A stretch of DNA of 64,000 nucleotides. It comes from an uncultured Pelagibacteraceae bacterium. Its GTDB lineage: Bacteria > Pseudomonadota > Alphaproteobacteria > Pelagibacterales > Pelagibacteraceae. Location: NCBI GenBank assembly GCA_902570695.1, contig CACFZE010000002.1, positions 1-64,000 of the forward strand, written 5' to 3'. Below, piece by piece: positions 4,148 through 54,928 of this stretch. Each line of letters begins with the position of its first letter. Position 1 is the stretch's first letter. Below the pieces are notes generated by a model that saw only the letters and a program-made list of their open reading frames with translations, was not told the DNA's origin and searched no databases. The position numbers and the translations under genes are program-made.

Positions 4148-4723
4148 ATGAATGACTATTTGCAATCAATTATTGATAGGGATCCAGCAGCAAGATCAAA
4201 GCTAAGTGTAATTTTAACATACCCTGGCGTTAAGGCTGTATTTTTTCACAGAATTGCAAATTTTTTTGCTACTGCAAAATTTGATCTTATTGCAAGAATA
4301 ATTTCTCAATTTTCAAGATTTTTAACTGGTATTGAAATCCATCCAAGAGCTAAGATAGGTAAAAATTTATTTATTGATCACGGTATGGGCGTTGTTATAG
4401 GTGAAACATCTGACATTGCAGATAACGTAACAATTTATCATATGGTTACTTTAGGTGGAATATCTCCAAGCATAAACTCCAATGATCAAAGAGAAATTAA
4501 AAGACACCCTACTCTTCATGATAATGTTGTTGTTGGTTCAGGAGCGCAGATTTTGGGGCCTGTAGTTATAGGGAAAAATGCAAGAATTGGAGCTAATGCA
4601 GTTGTAACAAAAAATGTTCCTGAAAATGCTGTTATGGTAGGAATACCTGCTAAGAATGTTGGTACAGCAACTGAAGAATTTAAACCTTATGCTGTTACTA
4701 ATGGCAGTGAGGAAAAAGAATAA
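4148..4723 (+). CDS. cysE: serine O-acetyltransferase
   Basis: Transfers acetyl from acetyl-CoA to L-serine, the first step of cysteine synthesis. The protein (191 residues) has an N-terminal helical part and a left-handed beta helix of hexapeptide repeats from about residue 62 to 170. The catalytic block [13 protein letters not shown] (His78, Glu85) and His98 are present. It is a short form, lacking much of the N-terminal domain of E. coli CysE, as is common in Gram-positive and many alphaproteobacterial versions. The stop overlaps the start of the cysteine synthase gene by one base, so the two enzymes are translationally coupled. Confidence 0.92.
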
Positions 4724-5724
4724 TGAAAAATTACAAGGATGATTTTATCCAATCAATTGGAAATACTCCTTTAGTAAAACTAAAAGCTGCATCTGAAATA
4801 ACTGGTTGTAATATTTATGGTAAAGCCGAATATTTAAATCCAGGAGGATCTGTAAAAGACAGAGCAGCTCTTGCTCTTATAAAAGACGCTGAGGAAAAAA
4901 AATTAATATCTAAAGGTGGAACAATTGTTGAAGGTACAGCTGGAAATACTGGGATTGGATTATGTTTATTAGGAAATTCACTAGGTTACAAAACTATTAT
5001 TGTAATGAACGATAATCAAACTCAAGAAAAAAAAGATACATTAAGAAATATTGGTGCAGATCTAAAATTAGTTCCACCAAAACCTTATAAAGATGAAAAT
5101 AACTTTGTTAAAGTTGCTGCTAGAATGGCTGAAGACCTAAAAAGTTCAAATAATCACGGAGTTGTTTGGGCAAATCAATTTGATAATACAGCAAACTCAA
5201 AAGGTCACTATAATACAACGGGTCCTGAGATATGGGAACAAACGGAGGGAAAAGTTGATGGATTTGTATGTTCTTCTGGAACTGGGGGAACAATTGGTGG
5301 AGTAAGTAGTTTTTTAAAAGAAAAAAATAAAGATATAAAAATTTATCTATCAGATCCAAAGGGATCCTCTCTTTACAATCACATTGAAAACGGTGAGTTA
5401 AAAGCTGAAGGTGGATCAATAACTGAAGGCATTGGATCCAGCAGAGTAACTGCTAATTTTGCAGAAGCAAAAATAGATGGAGCCTTTTCAATTGAAGATA
5501 AAGAGTCTTTGCCAATACTATATGATTTAATCAAAAATGAAGGTTTAAGTCTTGGAACAAGTTGTGGAGTAAATATTGCAGGCGCAATAAGATTGGGTAA
5601 AAAATTAGGACCAGGAAAAACTATTGTCACTATTCTTTGCGACAAATCAGACAGATACAACTCAAAGATGTTTAATAAACCTTTTTTAATTGAAAAAGGT
5701 TTACCTTATCCCGATTGGATATAA
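4723..5724 (+). CDS. cysK: cysteine synthase (O-acetylserine sulfhydrylase)
   Basis: A PLP enzyme that makes cysteine from O-acetylserine and sulfide. The PLP lysine is Lys45 in NPGGSVKDR. The substrate loop is TAGNTG (72-77), and the phosphate-binding glycine loop is SSGTGGTIGG (184-193). It directly follows cysE with a one-base overlap. Whether it is a CysK or CysM isozyme cannot be settled by eye. The C terminus ends in PDWI rather than the usual CysK tail. A weak hairpin follows the stop. Confidence 0.88.
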   Translation: MKNYKDDFIQSIGNTPLVKLKAASEITGCNIYGKAEYLNPGGSVKDRAALALIKDAEEKKLISKGGTIVEGTAGNTGIGLCLLGNSLGYKTIIVMNDNQTQEKKDTLRNIGADLKLVPPKPYKDENNFVKVAARMAEDLKSSNNHGVVWANQFDNTANSKGHYNTTGPEIWEQTEGKVDGFVCSSGTGGTIGGVSSFLKEKNKDIKIYLSDPKGSSLYNHIENGELKAEGGSITEGIGSSRVTANFAEAKIDGAFSIEDKESLPILYDLIKNEGLSLGTSCGVNIAGAIRLGKKLGPGKTIVTILCDKSDRYNSKMFNKPFLIEKGLPYPDWI

Positions 5725-5740
5725 TAACGCATATCAGCAC

Positions 5741-5763
5741 TGTAATAAAACCATTACATTTTT
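5741..5763 (+). terminator. weak hairpin with T-tract after cysteine synthase gene
   Basis: An AT-rich 6-bp stem (TGTAAT 5741-5746 / ATTACA 5753-5758) is followed directly by five T. It could end the ETHE1-cysE-cysK transcript ahead of the small-protein operon. The stem is weak, so this is tentative; it could equally be a short operator. Confidence 0.35.
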
Positions 5764-5806: not shown

Positions 5807-6181
5807 ATGGACGCAAAAGAAGTAGTTAAAAAAGGATATGAACTTTTTGGCAAAGGAGATATGGAGGGATTTATGGAAATGGTACATGATGATATCACTT
5901 GGATTTATCCTGGGGATAAGCATCCAATGTCAGGAACTCATAAAGGCAAAGAGGCATATATGAAAACCATGATGCAAGTTCCAAATCTTTGGAGTAATTT
6001 TTCAGTAACCCCTGATATGATGATTAGTGAGGGGAATAAAGTGTTTGTTAAAGCAACTGCTAAGGCAGATGGCATGGATACTATTTTCGGTCATTATTTT
6101 GAAGTAGGCGATGATGGTAAACTGACATTATTTATTGCGTTTGATGACACACTAAGCATGTTCAATGCAATTAAGAAGTAA
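5807..6181 (+). CDS. SnoaL-like / NTF2-fold small protein
   Basis: A 124-residue soluble protein with the pattern of the SnoaL-like (NTF2) cone fold: an N-terminal helix pair, then HDDITW, then a beta sheet. The family includes polyketide cyclases, ketosteroid-isomerase relatives and ring-processing enzymes, as well as many proteins of unknown role. It opens a nine-gene operon (gaps of 0-27 bases, then overlaps) that also holds a second SnoaL-like protein. The ribosome binding site is AAGGAA. The substrate is unknown. Confidence 0.7.
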   Translation: MDAKEVVKKGYELFGKGDMEGFMEMVHDDITWIYPGDKHPMSGTHKGKEAYMKTMMQVPNLWSNFSVTPDMMISEGNKVFVKATAKADGMDTIFGHYFEVGDDGKLTLFIAFDDTLSMFNAIKK

Positions 6182-6187
6182 GAGTTT

Positions 6188-6586
6188 ATGAAAAAATTAT
6201 ATTTTATTTTAATTTTAAGTTTATTTACAGCTAATGTTTACGCAGATAGCCATGTAAAGAGAATTATATCAACAAGTCAAACAGGAATGGGAAATGATAT
6301 TGTATACCCTACTGGAAAAGCAAAGATAACAGCTTTTGAATTTACTGTACCTGTAGGAGCTCCAGTAACTCCTCATACGCACTCATTTCCAGTTCTAATA
6401 ATGATTCAGCAAGGTGAAATTGAATTAATTCATGAAGGAAAAACCCAAGTATTCAAAGCTGGTGATGCATTTGTTGAAGATGTTGGAATTGTACACGAGT
6501 CGAAAAATATTGGAAATGTTCCAGTTAAAGCGATTGTAGTTGCAATTGGTGTCGAAGGACAGAAAATTATGACACCGGTAAAATAA
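6188..6586 (+). CDS. secreted cupin-domain protein
   Basis: A 132-residue single-cupin protein with an N-terminal signal peptide; predicted cleavage is after Ala19 (NVYA/DS), so it acts in the periplasm. The cupin metal motif is present: His63 and His65 in PHTHSFP, and His103 in the second motif, with Glu77 as a possible fourth ligand. Such small secreted cupins bind a metal and may act on or bind small organic molecules. It starts 6 bases after the SnoaL-like gene. It is the only exported soluble member of this operon. Confidence 0.75.
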   Translation: MKKLYFILILSLFTANVYADSHVKRIISTSQTGMGNDIVYPTGKAKITAFEFTVPVGAPVTPHTHSFPVLIMIQQGEIELIHEGKTQVFKAGDAFVEDVGIVHESKNIGNVPVKAIVVAIGVEGQKIMTPVK

Positions 6587-6599
6587 AAAGGAAAAAGAA

Positions 6600-6890
6600 A
6601 TGATCATAAAAATAGAAGAAAATATAAAATCATTTTCATCTTGGATGAATATGGTAAAGGCGAATGCTGAAAAAATTAAAGGATTTGGTGCTACTATTAT
6701 TTTTGCGGGTGTATCTAAAGAAGACCCTTCAAAATTTACTGTAATCGTTAAGTATGCAACCATGCAAGGTTTTGAAGCATTTAAAAATGACAAAGAACTT
6801 CATGCAGCAAGAGCTGAAGCAGGTGTGGATTTAGATTCAGCAAAGGTTACACCAATGCATGAAGATTTTATGGAAAATTTTAGTGGATAA
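6600..6890 (+). CDS. small alpha/beta-barrel protein, DUF3764-like
   Basis: 96 residues. The central stretch IFAGVSKEDPSKFTVIVKY recalls DUF3764 proteins and the wider dimeric alpha/beta-barrel (ABM-type) superfamily; this is from memory and not checked by search. There are no cysteines and no obvious metal site. It lies 13 bases after the cupin gene and 27 bases before a second protein of the same size and general pattern. The function is unknown. It may be a small oxygenase, isomerase or binding protein acting with its neighbours. Confidence 0.6.
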   Translation: MIIKIEENIKSFSSWMNMVKANAEKIKGFGATIIFAGVSKEDPSKFTVIVKYATMQGFEAFKNDKELHAARAEAGVDLDSAKVTPMHEDFMENFSG

Positions 6891-6917
6891 ACAATTAATA
6901 TAAAGAAAGGATAAATT

Positions 6918-7208
6918 ATGGAAACAGAAACATTAGTCGTAGCTCACCTTAAAGAAGGGATGTTAGAAAAGTTTATGGGCTTTATGCAATCAGATGCTGG
7001 TATGGCAGAAAGATCGAAAGTTGCAAATGTATCAAAAACAATTGGAACAGTTGCACCTGACAAAAAAACAGTAATGTTTAAAATTTTTGTGACCGATAAA
7101 GCTGCCCTTAAAGCTTTTATAGATGGAAGTAACCCAGTATCAGGTCCAGTTATGAAAGAAGTTATGGAAAGTTATAGTGTCTACGAATTAAATAAAGTAG
7201 ATATGTAA
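6918..7208 (+). CDS. small alpha/beta-barrel protein of unknown function
   Basis: 96 residues, the same length as the preceding and following proteins. It shows an alternating strand-helix-strand pattern (ETLVVAHLKEG, then a methionine-rich helix, then TVMFKIFVTD), consistent with a ferredoxin-like dimeric barrel. It looks distantly related to the product of 6600-6890. A clear AAAGGA ribosome binding site precedes it. No catalytic residues can be named. Confidence 0.6.
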   Translation: METETLVVAHLKEGMLEKFMGFMQSDAGMAERSKVANVSKTIGTVAPDKKTVMFKIFVTDKAALKAFIDGSNPVSGPVMKEVMESYSVYELNKVDM

Positions 7209-7231
7209 TAATTTTTGTAATAAGGTTTGTA

Positions 7232-7522
7232 ATGCCTTCAGGATATATCATATTAAATATTAATGTGTTAAATCCTGAAAATTACAAAGAGTATTTGGAA
7301 AAAGCTCCTCCAACTGCTCAAATGTTTGGTGGCGAATACATTATAAGAGGTGGCGAAAATGAAGTCATTGAAGGTGAGTGGAAATATCCAAGAACTGTTG
7401 TAATTAAATTCCCATCTTATGAAAAAGTTTTTGAGTGGTACAATTCAGAAATATATAAACCTATCAGACAAATTAGATTAGATAATACAGTATCAAATAC
7501 ATTAATAATTAAAGGAGCATAA
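7232..7522 (+). CDS. DUF1330 family protein
   Basis: A 96-residue soluble protein with the features of DUF1330: an N-terminal strand ending in YIILNINV, then a YKEYLEKAP helix, a GGEYIIRGG turn and an RTVVIKFPS strand. DUF1330 proteins adopt the dimeric alpha/beta barrel fold of ABM monooxygenases and heme-degrading-like proteins, but their reaction is mostly unknown. It is the third ferredoxin-like barrel in a row in this operon. Confidence 0.85.
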   Translation: MPSGYIILNINVLNPENYKEYLEKAPPTAQMFGGEYIIRGGENEVIEGEWKYPRTVVIKFPSYEKVFEWYNSEIYKPIRQIRLDNTVSNTLIIKGA

Positions 7523-7533
7523 AGGAGAAAAAA

Positions 7534-7854
7534 ATGTCAATATTAGAAAAATATAGTGCTGCAATTAAAAATAAAGATGAAGCAGCAATGAACGAACTTT
7601 TGCATGATGATTTTAAATTCACAATGCATAAATCAGGGAGTGTTTTAACTAAAGGTGATGTTATCAAATGGGCAATGAGTGGTGATATCAAGCAAGATAA
7701 AACTAGAATTGTTTATGAAAATGATGAAGTTGGTGTTCACCATGCGTTCGTAACATTTGATGATGGTAATGTAGAAGCAGTTATGGCAGTCTACAAATAC
7801 AAAGATGGCAAAATGATTAGTTTAGAAACTGGCGCAACGCCAATGTCAAAATAA
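7534..7854 (+). CDS. second SnoaL-like / NTF2-fold small protein
   Basis: 106 residues with an N-terminal helical hairpin (AIKNKDEAAMNELLHDDFKF) and a following sheet, the SnoaL/NTF2 pattern, shorter than the first family member in the same operon. AGGAG lies 8 bases before the start. The next gene starts on the base after its stop codon, which suggests coupled translation. No catalytic residue can be assigned. Confidence 0.65.
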   Translation: MSILEKYSAAIKNKDEAAMNELLHDDFKFTMHKSGSVLTKGDVIKWAMSGDIKQDKTRIVYENDEVGVHHAFVTFDDGNVEAVMAVYKYKDGKMISLETGATPMSK

Positions 7855-8451
7855 GTGAACATTATAGATTTTTATTTTTCTATTGGAAGTACTTATACTT
7901 ATCTTTCGGTTACTCGAGCACTAGAAGCAGAAAAACAACATCAAATTAAGTTTAACTGGACTCCTTTTAGTGTGAGAGCAATAATGAAAGAAATGAACAA
8001 TGTTCCCTTTCCTAAAGAAAAAAAAAATAAAGTAGATTACATGTGGAGAGACATAGAAAGACGAGCAAAAAATTATGGATTTTTTGCCAAAACACCAGTC
8101 CCTTACCCTTTAACAGAATTTGATTTAGCTAATAAAATTGCAATATTAGGTTTAAAAAATAACTGGGGTGTAGATTACGTTCAGCTTACGTATAAACGAT
8201 GGTTTCAAGAAGGAAAAGAGCCTGCTGTTGAACCCAACTTGAGTGAAATCTGCGAAAAACTAAGCTTAGATAAAGAAAAGATTGTTTCAGAGGCAAGCTC
8301 TGAGGAAGTTAATAATATTTATTTATCAAATACAGAAAAGGCTAGAAAAAATAAAATATTTGGAAGTCCGTCATTTATTGTAAAAAATGAAATATTCTGG
8401 GGAGATGATAGAATGGAAGATGCAATCAAATGGTCGAAGGCAAATGAATAA
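7855..8451 (+). CDS. 2-hydroxychromene-2-carboxylate isomerase-like (DsbA/GST-kappa family)
   Basis: 198 residues with a GTG start immediately after the preceding stop codon. The N terminus DFYFSIGSTYTYL matches the thioredoxin-fold active-site region of HCCA isomerases and kappa-class glutathione transferases, with Ser12 at the catalytic serine position. The C-terminal GSPSFIVKNEIFWGDDR is the family signature. Known members isomerise a naphthalene-degradation intermediate with glutathione. It is the only gene of this operon with a recognised enzyme family, and hints that the operon acts on an aromatic or unsaturated carboxylate. Confidence 0.82.
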   Translation: MNIIDFYFSIGSTYTYLSVTRALEAEKQHQIKFNWTPFSVRAIMKEMNNVPFPKEKKNKVDYMWRDIERRAKNYGFFAKTPVPYPLTEFDLANKIAILGLKNNWGVDYVQLTYKRWFQEGKEPAVEPNLSEICEKLSLDKEKIVSEASSEEVNNIYLSNTEKARKNKIFGSPSFIVKNEIFWGDDRMEDAIKWSKANE

Positions 8452-8779
8452 TATAACTGCTTATATAATTTTATTAATCGCAGTAATTCTTGGAACAGCT
8501 TCAAATAGTTTTGCTAAAAGTGCTCAAGGTTTTACATTATTAATACCTAGCATAATTACAGCAGTAACAATTGTTGGATGCATGTATACTTTGTCTTTAG
8601 TTATGAAAAGTATACCAGTTGGAATAACATATGCCTCTTTTGCAGGCTTATGTATAATTGCAACAGCTGCTGTTGGTGTTATAAAATTTAATCAAGTACC
8701 AAATTTTTATACAATAATTGGATTGATTTTAATTATATCGGGTGTCTTAATAGTTAACTTATTAGGAACAAATAAATGA
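8444..8779 (+). CDS. SMR-family membrane protein without TM1 glutamate (subunit A)
   Basis: 111 residues with four membrane segments, the length and layout of small multidrug resistance proteins. I chose the ATG at 8444, overlapping the isomerase gene by 8 bases. An upstream in-frame start at 8387 would add 19 residues out of register with the family. The segment around GTASNSFAKSAQGF aligns to membrane segment 1 of QacC/EmrE, but the essential proton/cation-binding Glu (EmrE Glu14) is replaced by Gly17. The conserved tryptophan of the YATW motif is Phe here. Classical H+-coupled drug efflux is therefore doubtful. Confidence 0.85.
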   Translation: MNNITAYIILLIAVILGTASNSFAKSAQGFTLLIPSIITAVTIVGCMYTLSLVMKSIPVGITYASFAGLCIIATAAVGVIKFNQVPNFYTIIGLILIISGVLIVNLLGTNK

Positions 8780-9111
8780 AACCATTATCTGGTTATATTT
8801 ATTTGGTATTAGCTATATCAACAGGAATTGCTGCAAATAGTTTTGCTAAAATTTCAGATGGATTTTCAAAATTAACACCAACGATATTATCAATAGCTTT
8901 TATGTGTATAACTATGTATGGACTTGCAAAAGCTATGTCTATGATACCAGTAGGTTTTACTTATGCCACTTATAGTGGGATAACAGTGGCTGCTATTTTA
9001 GTCTTCGGTATGATTAAATATAACCAGATACCAAATATGTATGGGTTAATTGGGATTTTTTTAATTATTATTGGTGTTGTAATGGTTAATTATCTTGGAA
9101 GAATTAATTAG
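8776..9111 (+). CDS. SMR-family membrane protein without TM1 glutamate (subunit B)
   Basis: 111 residues with four membrane segments, overlapping subunit A by 4 bases (ATGA). It aligns with QacC without gaps through segment 1 (YIYLVLAIS) up to DGFSK, but Gly17 stands where QacC has its essential Glu13. The YATW motif reads YATYSG. Paired SMR genes usually encode heteromeric transporters with opposite membrane orientation. The shared loss of the glutamate shows that this pair evolved together and is not a casual degeneration. Its 3' end overlaps the convergent EamA gene by 4 bases. Confidence 0.85.
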   Translation: MKPLSGYIYLVLAISTGIAANSFAKISDGFSKLTPTILSIAFMCITMYGLAKAMSMIPVGFTYATYSGITVAAILVFGMIKYNQIPNMYGLIGIFLIIIGVVMVNYLGRIN

Positions 9112-10007
9112 CTCTTATTTAATAATAAAATTAGTACTCCTACAACAAATATAATTATCCCTAAAATTTCTGTAATTTTAACTTTTTCTTTAAACATATA
9201 CTTTGAAGACACATAGCTAAATAATAATTCTATTTGGCCGATAGCTCTTACGAATGAAGACTGTATTAAGGTAAAAGCATAAAACCAAGATAATGTTGCG
9301 AGAAATCCAGCTAACCCAGCTGTCAAGCATTCATACTTGTTTTCATATAATTTTTTAAACTGTGACTTTTCAAATATAATTAAATAAATAGTAACTAATG
9401 TTGTTTGTATAACTAGACCAAAAAATAGTGTTGCTATAGCTTTTTCAAAGTTATTACTAAAATTTTCCAATGTTAATGCTGCTGCTCTAAAATATACAAC
9501 GCTTAAACCTAGGAATAGTCCTGCGGATAAACCAATTAAAGTTGTTTTTGAAAATAAGTTTTTTAGAAATAAACTTAAATCTTTAATCGATAGTATAATT
9601 ACTCCAATTGTAGATACAATAATTCCTGTTATTCCAAATTTATTTAATTTGTCCCCTATTATCAAATATTCAAAAATCGCAACCTGAATAACTTCAGTCT
9701 TACTTAATGAAGTTCCAACTACAAAATTAGCAAATCTAAATAAATAGAGTAAAACAAATGTAAAAATTATTTGGAAAATTGAACCTAATAATACGTTAAA
9801 TATAAATTTTTTTTGACTAAGGATTTCAGGAATTACATTTAAGTCTTGAAAATACAAAAAAAATAAAATTGTCCCAAATGGTAATGCAAAAGCAAATCTT
9901 ACATAGGTAGATGCAATAGTTGATACTTTTTGATTAAGTTTTTTCTGTAAAGTTGATCTAAGATTTTGAAAAAAAGCCCCAGAAATAGCTACAATTATCC
10001 AATTCAT
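9108..10007 (-). CDS. EamA/DMT-superfamily transporter
   Basis: 299 residues with about ten hydrophobic segments arranged as two five-segment repeats, the EamA (drug/metabolite transporter) pattern. It starts with a membrane segment and has no signal peptide. It is transcribed towards the SMR pair and away from dctP, so it is a single-gene unit. The family exports or imports amino acids, nucleosides, sugars and other small solutes; the substrate is unknown. Confidence 0.75.
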   Translation of the reverse strand: MNWIIVAISGAFFQNLRSTLQKKLNQKVSTIASTYVRFAFALPFGTILFFLYFQDLNVIPEILSQKKFIFNVLLGSIFQIIFTFVLLYLFRFANFVVGTSLSKTEVIQVAIFEYLIIGDKLNKFGITGIIVSTIGVIILSIKDLSLFLKNLFSKTTLIGLSAGLFLGLSVVYFRAAALTLENFSNNFEKAIATLFFGLVIQTTLVTIYLIIFEKSQFKKLYENKYECLTAGLAGFLATLSWFYAFTLIQSSFVRAIGQIELLFSYVSSKYMFKEKVKITEILGIIIFVVGVLILLLNKS

Positions 10008-54533: not shown

Positions 54534-54592
54534 ATCAATGATTCTATCATAGATATGCAATAAACGCAATTCTGATATGCGTATATTAAATA

Positions 54593-54928
54593 CTATATTT
54601 TAAAGGATTCTCCGCATCCACATCTCTCTGTTTCATTCGGGTTATTAAATACAAATTGTGAAGAAAATTTTTCTTTTTTAAAATCCATTTCTGTTCCAAG
54701 TAGATACATTACCGCCGCAGAGTCTATGAAAACTTTCACACCCTTATCTTCTACTACTTCGTCATTTGGTTTTGCCTCTTTTGTGTACTCCATAACATAA
54801 GACATACCTGCGCATCCACCTGACTTAACTCCAACTCTAACTCCTAAAGAGTCTTTTTCAGCATTAGACATAATTTCTTTTATTCTTTGAGCTGCGTTAT
54901 CACTTAATGTTATAATTTGTTTTGTCAT
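54593..54928 (-). CDS. sufA: SufA/IscA-type Fe-S carrier
   Basis: 111 residues, HesB/IscA fold. The three cysteines that hold the iron or Fe-S cluster are Cys39 (GGCAGM) and Cys103 and Cys105 (RCGCGESF). It receives clusters from the SufBCD scaffold and passes them to target proteins. It is the last gene of the suf operon and overlaps sufT by 4 bases. Confidence 0.92.
   Translation of the reverse strand: MTKQIITLSDNAAQRIKEIMSNAEKDSLGVRVGVKSGGCAGMSYVMEYTKEAKPNDEVVEDKGVKVFIDSAAVMYLLGTEMDFKKEKFSSQFVFNNPNETERCGCGESFKI

Follow-up and report, generated by a model that had tools for sequence, protein, structure and literature searches.

A largely ordered array of small-protein genes in SAR11 bacteria that varies gene by gene between close strains

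Results

The nine genes of the window

We analysed positions 1 to 64,000 of contig CACFZE010000002.1 (hereafter the window, meaning the whole of this stretch), from the genome of an uncultured SAR11 bacterium of the family Pelagibacteraceae (assembly GCA_902570695.1; 1.30 Mb, 27 contigs, 97% complete). Between positions 5807 and 9111, the window carries an operon of nine mostly small genes. In the slot that this operon occupies, the gene order is largely fixed, single genes vary between close strains, and those retained evolve under purifying selection. The same slot holds additional genes in related strains, which are invisible from the window alone. The nine genes are as follows.

5807-6181, + strand: gene 1, Sno1, SnoaL_2-like, 124 amino acids (Pfam SnoaL_2, E 1.8e-12)
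6188-6586, + strand: gene 2, Cup1, Cupin_2, 132 amino acids, probably secreted (Pfam, E 4.2e-12)
6600-6890, + strand: gene 3, D3764, DUF3764 family, 96 amino acids (Pfam, E 5.9e-6, above cut-off)
6918-7208, + strand: gene 4, ABM4, 96 amino acids, no Pfam match (open reading frame and structure model)
7232-7522, + strand: gene 5, D1330, DUF1330, 96 amino acids (Pfam, E 4e-29)
7534-7854, + strand: gene 6, Sno2, DUF4440/SnoaL_2-like, 106 amino acids (Pfam)
7855-8451, + strand: gene 7, DsbA/HCCA-isomerase-like, 198 amino acids (Pfam DSBA)
8444-8779, + strand: gene 8, SMR1, SMR-family membrane protein (Pfam SMR)
8776-9111, + strand: gene 9, SMR2, SMR-family membrane protein (Pfam SMR)

A preliminary description of this DNA, drawn from its sequence only, had listed nine genes on one strand with small gaps and then overlaps, three of them encoding 96-residue proteins. 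All nine open reading frames (ORFs) were found, with the lengths of genes 3, 4 and 5 in agreement. The gaps between the first seven genes are 6, 13, 27, 23, 11 and 0 bases, SMR2 overlaps SMR1 by 4 bases, and SMR1 overlaps gene 7 by 8 bases when its family-aligned start at 8444 is used (the longest SMR1 ORF begins at 8387). The two SnoaL-like proteins, the cupin, the DUF1330 protein and the SMR pair of that description were recovered by Pfam profile searches above cut-off, and its secreted cupin agrees with the start of Cup1, which is signal-peptide-like by eye. In all, eight of the nine proteins exceed the curated Pfam cut-off, the exception being ABM4.

Gene content and gene order in the slot

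Most of the carriers read in genus g1 have the array as one same-strand block behind cysE-cysK. In the window, its flanks are as follows.

4148-5724, + strand: cysE-cysK, left flank of the slot in genus g1 (named from the sequence by eye)
9108-10007, - strand: EamA-family transporter gene, right flank in window-type strains, with other genes in its place elsewhere (Pfam and locus maps)

Loci were retrieved with ABM4, Sno2 and B12 (a family not in the window) as queries, and a profile was built for every family met and mapped on the loci; 80 of the loci come from a named collection and are the best 80 of at least 549 relatives. Among 147 sampled genomes of the family, 38 have ABM4 (21 of the 54 that are at least 90% complete), 62 have Sno2 and 28 have B12. 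In 92 SAR11 loci, cysK is followed by three or more array genes. These loci hold 47 different gene strings drawn from 19 small-protein families, with a median of 10 genes; this set includes at least two duplicates (L034, the contig of L108, and L036, the contig of L116), a moved copy (L040) and some contigs that stop within the array (e.g., L110 and L135). The families that other strains carry in the same slot are SEC3 and SEC27 (secreted, as judged by eye), B12 (SCO4226-like), GYD7 (GYD) and Cup39 (Cupin_2), the last three all below the Pfam cut-off, together with B50 (DUF3764), B52 (no match), TM11 (DUF2798), MEM1 (a membrane protein as predicted by eye, with no Pfam match), a cupredoxin and a few others. 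Eight unlabelled ORFs of at least 70 amino acids lie inside the 92 slots and are of seven kinds; the largest, of 428 amino acids at one locus, is an enolase-type dehydratase by eye.

The order of these genes is far from random, in that 1071 of 1125 gene pairs agree with the majority order, as against a mean of 718 and a maximum of 753 in 500 shuffles. Sno2, present in 90 of the 92 slots, is among the two most constant families, partly owing to its choice as a query, and Sno1 is optional (38 of the 81 slots on the tree described below). The variation reaches down to close strains. Of the 48 loci (L091-L138) with 92% or higher identity to the ABM4 of the window, 43 reach both flanks; all 43 have the identical pair of cysK and EamA, and between these flanks we found nine different contents, one of which differs only by a split DsbA gene. 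This gene lies in two ORFs in L105 and L065, where it may be decaying or may reflect a sequencing error.

Selection on the retained genes

The ratio of nonsynonymous to synonymous substitution rates (dN/dS) was obtained for 17 of the 19 array families (cupredoxin and SEC135 being left out) from pairs with at least 80% amino acid identity, a filter that lowers all values alike, those of cysE and cysK included. Family medians range from 0.03 (GYD7) to 0.16 (SEC27), with cysE at 0.10 and cysK at 0.06 under the same filter; for the families of the window, they are 0.10 (Sno1), 0.11 (Cup1), 0.06 (D3764), 0.06 (ABM4), 0.04 (D1330), 0.08 (Sno2), 0.08 (DsbA) and 0.05 (SMR). Without the filter, and with distant paralogues mixed in, some values are higher, such as 0.50 for SMR, 0.33 for TM11 and 0.28 for ABM4. 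On the whole, the array genes that are retained are under purifying selection.

Gene loss and array movement

A tree of cysE and cysK was built for 81 of the 92 loci, 11 being dropped for missing or odd-length cysE or cysK. On this tree, parsimony requires at least 130 presence/absence changes in the 19 families, a count that recombination in the flanks would inflate. SEC27 changes 18 times, Cup39 13, DsbA 11 and D3764 10, and the numbers go down to two each for SMR and Sno2. One such change has left a visible trace in the window.

6188-6216, + strand: deletion scar, the first 29 nucleotides of the cupin gene being those of the SEC27 gene start of sister locus L093 (sequence comparison)

At 6160-6216, all 57 nucleotides agree with those of L093, from ahead of SEC27 to within that gene, which is missing from the window and present in sister strains. 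From 6188 on, the window also aligns to Cup1 of L093 (95.3% over 792 nucleotides), and past 6216 it tracks Cup1, so that the overlap at the junction is 29 nucleotides. The start of SEC27 thus runs into the sequence of Cup1, and the cupin of the window therefore has a chimeric signal peptide; this chimeric start marks a deletion of SEC27. It is shared by L092, whereas L103 and L109, which have the same gene string, have an ordinary Cup1 start, and this suggests that SEC27 has been lost at least twice. L109 is shorter than L096 by 378 nucleotides only, and a remnant of SEC27 may therefore persist there.

Larger events are also seen. Genome G017 has, at 662 kb, an array of eight families that includes no SMR gene; the final 52 codons of a cysK stand in front of it (L040, 8754-8921), and the intact cysK at 342 kb has no array gene behind it. 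The cysK tail and spacer of the moved array match L072 at 88.8% over 187 nucleotides, against 82.5% over 114 nucleotides for the genome's own cysK, which suggests import. The preliminary description had argued that genes kept together in a streamlined genome imply a real benefit; purifying selection, and the eight-gene block that moved together, are in keeping with this. In G026, the slot is nearly empty, with only the two SMR genes behind cysK and an ORF of 69 amino acids.

A leader upstream of the array

Upstream of the first array gene lies a short leader that may be a promoter or an operator.

5729-5758, + strand: array leader, GCATATCAG (5729-5737) followed by the dyad TGTAAT-N6-ATTACA (5741-5758), beginning 4 nucleotides past the cysK stop

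In the window, GCATANCNG is followed by TGTAATAAAACCATTACA. Within 170 nucleotides upstream of the first array gene, GCATANCNG is present in 82 of the 92 slot loci, many of which are close relatives; it is also found in nine of ten arrays of genus g4, which stand at another locus, and in one of 19 further small groups. A relaxed form of the dyad is present in 67 of the 92 slots and absent from 25, with the arms TGTAAT/ATTACA in 39 and TGTAAC/GTTACA in seven; unmatched arms include TGTTAT/ATTACA (four) and TGTAAT/GTTACA (two). Within the window alone, neither element exceeds chance, the dyad having one match (as do 34 of 100 shuffles) and GCATAYCWG two (as do 23 of 100). Genome-wide, GCATAYCWG has 19 matches against three for the reversed pattern; 10 of the 12 sites examined among these 19 fall within ORFs, and we do not claim a regulon. 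A riboswitch was rejected, as no Rfam family reached its gathering score in the window or in four loci from relatives apart from a single match, a tRNA. A second intergenic GCATATCAG lies at 54572-54580 on the - strand of the window, about 12 nucleotides past the stop of the gene at 54593-54928.

Array families at other loci and in other lineages

Smaller arrays of the same families occur at other loci in other families of the class. Sno2 profiles match nine of 289 genomes of the class, of which one is the window's own and one is a weak match in the same family; ABM4 matches three of the 289, its own genome included. The order is ABM4-Cup39-B52-Sno2 in G470 and ABM4-Cup39-Sno2 in G680, and both fit the commoner SAR11 order. 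A second locus of G680, a genome of another family (L192, G680:C6:42000-60000), holds two Sno1 genes, an ABM gene, a ydhR-type gene, DUF3764-like genes and others, with a weak dirigent match (E 0.097). G588 carries Sno2 at two loci: by itself at the first, and at the second together with D3764 (43.5 bits), a weak match to D1330 (21.9 bits) and, on the opposite strand, a GYD gene. The other four genomes have Sno2 alone or with at most three array-type genes. B12 was found in none of 299 genomes of the phylum, a set without a positive control, so that this shows little.

The genome of the window itself has relatives of array genes outside the slot. At G000:C1:144851-149690 (L172:6852-11691), a DUF1330 paralogue (148 bits with the array profile) lies between proteins of 315 and 329 amino acids, which have signal-peptide-like starts and no Pfam match above cut-off; a MEM1 relative 3 kb away makes this a second small array-type locus in the same genome. 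A tandem pair of DUF1330 genes lies at G000:C3:36707-37312 (L171:6708-7313). ABM4 relatives were also seen, with no other array gene, on two contigs (L143 and L152) of metagenome-assembled genomes labelled Flavobacteriales/Flavobacteriaceae, which are perhaps misbinned SAR11 contigs. A phage or plasmid origin was rejected, in that scans of viral contigs with ABM4 and DUF1330 alignments gave no relative, a collection of 72,556 plasmid records contains nothing that matches ABM4, and the only window proteins with PHROGs matches are the two SMR proteins.

Predicted folds of the small proteins

Gene 4 had been read as a barrel protein, and its AlphaFold2 monomer (predicted local distance difference test score, pLDDT, 95.5) agrees. 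The model has a ferredoxin-like subunit fold of the dimeric alpha+beta barrel type according to Foldseek (best E 1.6e-4; eight matches with E of 0.001 or less; query template modelling (TM) scores of 0.49-0.68 among the 50 matches listed), with matches that include LsrG, NIPSNAP proteins, SnoaB, ActVA-Orf6 and the polyketide cyclases FasU and OAC. ABM4 is thus predicted, from a monomer, to have this fold. SEC27 is likewise predicted to be a barrel of the dirigent/allene oxide cyclase (AOC) type: its structure model has eight strands (pLDDT 87.4), and its top Foldseek matches are dirigent GePTS1 and JAC1 and the cyclase PloI4; the cyclase PyrI4 is also matched, and allene oxide cyclase comes later, with TM scores of about 0.5. 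Some folds of the array are thus, as had been proposed for the operon, those of proteins that tailor aromatic compounds or polyketides.

In family profile searches, D1330 has a solved relative in Protein Data Bank (PDB) entry 2fiu (E 9.6e-24), and gene 7, previously described as an HCCA-isomerase-like enzyme, has its closest solved relative in a 2-hydroxychromene-2-carboxylate (HCCA) isomerase (PDB 2imd, E 3.5e-16). Ser12 of gene 7 aligns to the first-loop serine of 2imd, which we take to be catalytic, and is invariant in all seven rows of the alignment. By sequence, gene 7 is a relative of the NahD-type isomerases. Shared ancestry of the small barrels was considered and rejected, as the profile comparisons were too weak.

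The SMR pair lacks the central glutamate

SMR1 and SMR2 pass the Pfam Multi_Drug_Res cut-off of 23.7 bits with 56.4 and 68.3 bits. In HMMER alignments, however, the place of Glu14 of EmrE is taken by glycine, which is Gly17 in both SMR1 and SMR2. All 187 SMR copies found across the mapped loci have this glycine, as do all 106 unique sequences among them. Trp63 is replaced by Tyr in 94 copies and by Phe in 93, and Tyr40 by Ile or Met; the positions of Tyr60 and Lys22 are retained in all 187. A second SMR protein of the same genome (G000:C2:164310) keeps the Glu, the Trp and the Tyr. According to passages of PMC9574504, the glutamates are conserved and essential in three of the four SMR subtypes, the fourth, lipid flippases with noncationic substrates, often has Asn, and more than 95% of adjacent SMR pairs have opposite charge bias. 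Opposite Arg/Lys bias was found in none of 78 adjacent array pairs, whose biases are only 0 or -1 with loop limits set by hand.

With neither the central glutamate nor the binding-site tryptophan, the pair does not fit a proton-coupled exporter of the Qac, Gdx or polyamine type. Nor does the pair resemble the lipid transporters ArnE/ArnF, since SMR1 scores 17.2 bits with ArnE against 73.3 with QacCGHJ, SMR2 gave no ArnE match in the profile search, and the residue is Gly, not Asn. The earlier proposal that the membrane pair moves a substrate or product of the pathway thus loses ground, as the residue needed by proton-coupled SMR exporters is missing. From the replacement of the central Glu by Gly and the precedent of the flippases, we infer that the pair is a putative facilitator for uncharged molecules.

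Discussion

How might a locus of this kind work? The nine genes of the window represent one of many versions of a larger modular array. That its modules act in parallel on small molecules is our preferred reading, which we regard as a serious possibility, if somewhat short of an even chance. Where a fold could be recognised, it is in many modules one whose members are known to function without a redox cofactor, which holds for the families in general and not for any single protein. Most modules would be small, self-sufficient barrels (dimeric alpha+beta, SnoaL/NTF2-like, cupin, dirigent/AOC and HCCA-isomerase types), working without a redox cofactor and without a partner step. Each would bind or isomerise one kind of small molecule that probably carries no charge and is partly hydrophobic. 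Some modules would work in the cytoplasm and others in the periplasm; as they would act in parallel, any one of them could be lost. Lacking the central glutamate, the SMR pair would provide a permeation route for uncharged substrates without proton coupling, and a strain would keep the subset that fits the molecules it meets, for detoxification, salvage or repair. More tentatively, and with some doubt on our part, SAR11 and at least one other small-genome family of marine alphaproteobacteria could possess in this array a combinatorial chemical toolkit, in which small-barrel enzymes or binders in a fixed gene order, with a subset drawn by each strain, are coupled to a new, glutamate-less type of SMR channel or flippase for uncharged molecules.

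Several observations weigh against this interpretation. First, profile comparison fails to join the barrel families (probabilities of 26.7% for ABM4-DUF1330, 13.2% for DUF1330-DUF3764/B50, 1.3% for ABM4-DUF3764/B50 and 0.3% for B12-ABM4), so that the barrel fold rests on the model for ABM4 and on the Pfam and PDB relation for DUF1330; SEC3, B52 and MEM1 have no assigned fold. Oxygenases are found among both cupins and ABM proteins, so that to call the modules isomerases or binders is a guess. Second, the sample leans to near relatives, as the best 80 of the relatives were taken, and the occupancy of ABM4, Sno2 and B12 is inflated by their use as queries. Third, order and independence are imperfect: 30 of 154 family pairs are seen in both orders in at least one string, and Cup1-D3764 and B52-MEM1 are preferred pairs (phi 0.67 each, raw, ancestry included), so that not all modules are independent and small sub-modules within the array are possible. 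Fourth, single pairs reach dN/dS values of 0.57 (ABM4), 0.54 (Cup1) and 0.46 (MEM1). Fifth, the junction overlaps, which speak for the interpretation, are not general. Ten single-gene differences were compared. In six of them, both flanks are at least 93% identical and overlap by 8-16 nucleotides at the junction, figures that BLAST extension may have lengthened and that stand without a chance level; of the remaining four, SEC3 in L148 (92.7% identity on the left) has none (-9), two low-identity pairs have none, and the TM11 difference has 16 nucleotides with an identity of only 83-86%. Sixth, the SMR genes are absent from the moved array of G017. Finally, the preliminary description had asked whether gene order and co-occurrence hold in related genomes. 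They do, as one block behind cysK, in most of the carriers read in genus g1. Among the 57 loci L034-L090, however, there are 23, all belonging to other genera, with just one to three array genes, for the most part at other sites; genes that occur singly, in pairs or in threes do not have to form a single system, and these loci come near the result that was to refute the earlier reading.

An alternative that overlaps with parallel modules is antagonism or defence, in which the modules would neutralise or sequester toxins of competitors or algae and the SMR pair would serve in efflux. An arms race would give strain-by-strain variation of subsets such as that seen here, and the homology of the SMR pair also fits; the pair, however, has no efflux glutamate, and none of the nine window proteins matches PADLOC models at E 0.01, which rules against an anti-phage system, the only kind that PADLOC covers. 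We consider this alternative unlikely. Less support remains for a serial pathway, either the compact route for one aromatic or unsaturated acid (its breakdown or its making) that had been put forward at the outset, or a route of polyketide-like tailoring. The set of folds resembles aromatic-polyketide tailoring (ABM/SnoaB/ActVA-Orf6, SnoaL, cupin and dirigent/PyrI4/PloI4 cyclases), an HCCA isomerase is present, and TRAP-transporter genes and an isocitrate-lyase-like gene, named by eye, lie just downstream of the array in the window. Yet the TRAP genes are off the right flank of array carriers except in window-type strains, and no dehydrogenase, coenzyme A ligase, known ring-cleaving enzyme or polyketide synthase was recognised, partly by eye, among the labelled families and the eight unlabelled ORFs of the 92 slots. 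Moreover, the loss of a middle step in a serial route should remove the rest, and we see instead single genes missing in close strains and many ordered, selected subsets, from which we infer parallel action; a serial pathway is thus decidedly unlikely. That the locus has little function, its small genes coming and going through recombination like those of other SAR11 islands, would account for the high turnover, the junction overlaps, the nearly empty slot of G026, the intact cysK of G017 without an array and the array genes alone in other genera, but is very unlikely given median dN/dS values similar to those of cysE and cysK, a largely conserved order, the GCATANCNG leader at two loci, the joint occurrence of these gene families in further taxonomic families of the class and a genome of 1.3 Mb.

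If the parallel-module interpretation is correct and the array is a toolkit, its content in each strain would be a readable record of the dissolved molecules that each population meets, and if the glutamate-less SMR pair transports, it would do so by a mechanism new to a well-studied family. SAR11 bacteria belong to the most abundant cells of the ocean; how their small genomes are reconciled with ecological difference at the strain level is an open question. Islands of hypothetical proteins in SAR11 are mentioned in part of PMC7318151, DUF3764 is named in a Prochlorococcus match in PMC10434023, and PMC6689052 assigns ABM proteins a role in fidelity control; the extracts of open-licence literature returned by SAR11, Pelagibacter and family terms hold no description of the array. 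Here, close strains differ gene by gene within a single operon that is ordered and under selection, and one deletion has left its scar in plain view. Single-cell genomes that already exist therefore allow a test of whether gene subset and environment are linked.

The array can be compared with several known systems. Integron gene-cassette arrays, such as those of Vibrio, consist of exchangeable single-gene modules in one direction, and the present array is similar in this respect; unlike them, its order is largely fixed, and neither the slot of the window nor the unlabelled ORFs include a recognisable integrase (recombination-site repeats were not systematically looked for). It shares its folds with aromatic polyketide tailoring clusters (SnoaL, SnoaB/ActVA-Orf6, cupin cyclases and dirigent/AOC-type cyclases), but no synthase was recognised, and all genes but Sno2 and SMR are often missing. 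Its SMR proteins are full-length members of the family, like Qac (EmrE), Gdx, MdtIJ and ArnEF, and are nearest to EmrE among solved structures; they differ from known members in having Gly for the central Glu, Tyr or Phe for Trp63 and Ile or Met for Tyr40, and from known paired members in the lack of opposite charge bias in all 78 pairs. There is a further parallel with the "polymorphic gene indels" that a passage of Wilhelm et al. 2007 (PMC2217521) describes in SAR11, together with four hypervariable regions. As in those indels, close strains differ within core regions by the presence of single genes, which are under purifying selection; in contrast to scattered indels and four large regions, the variation here is concentrated in one ordered operon that draws on 19 families around a near-constant Sno2 and SMR.

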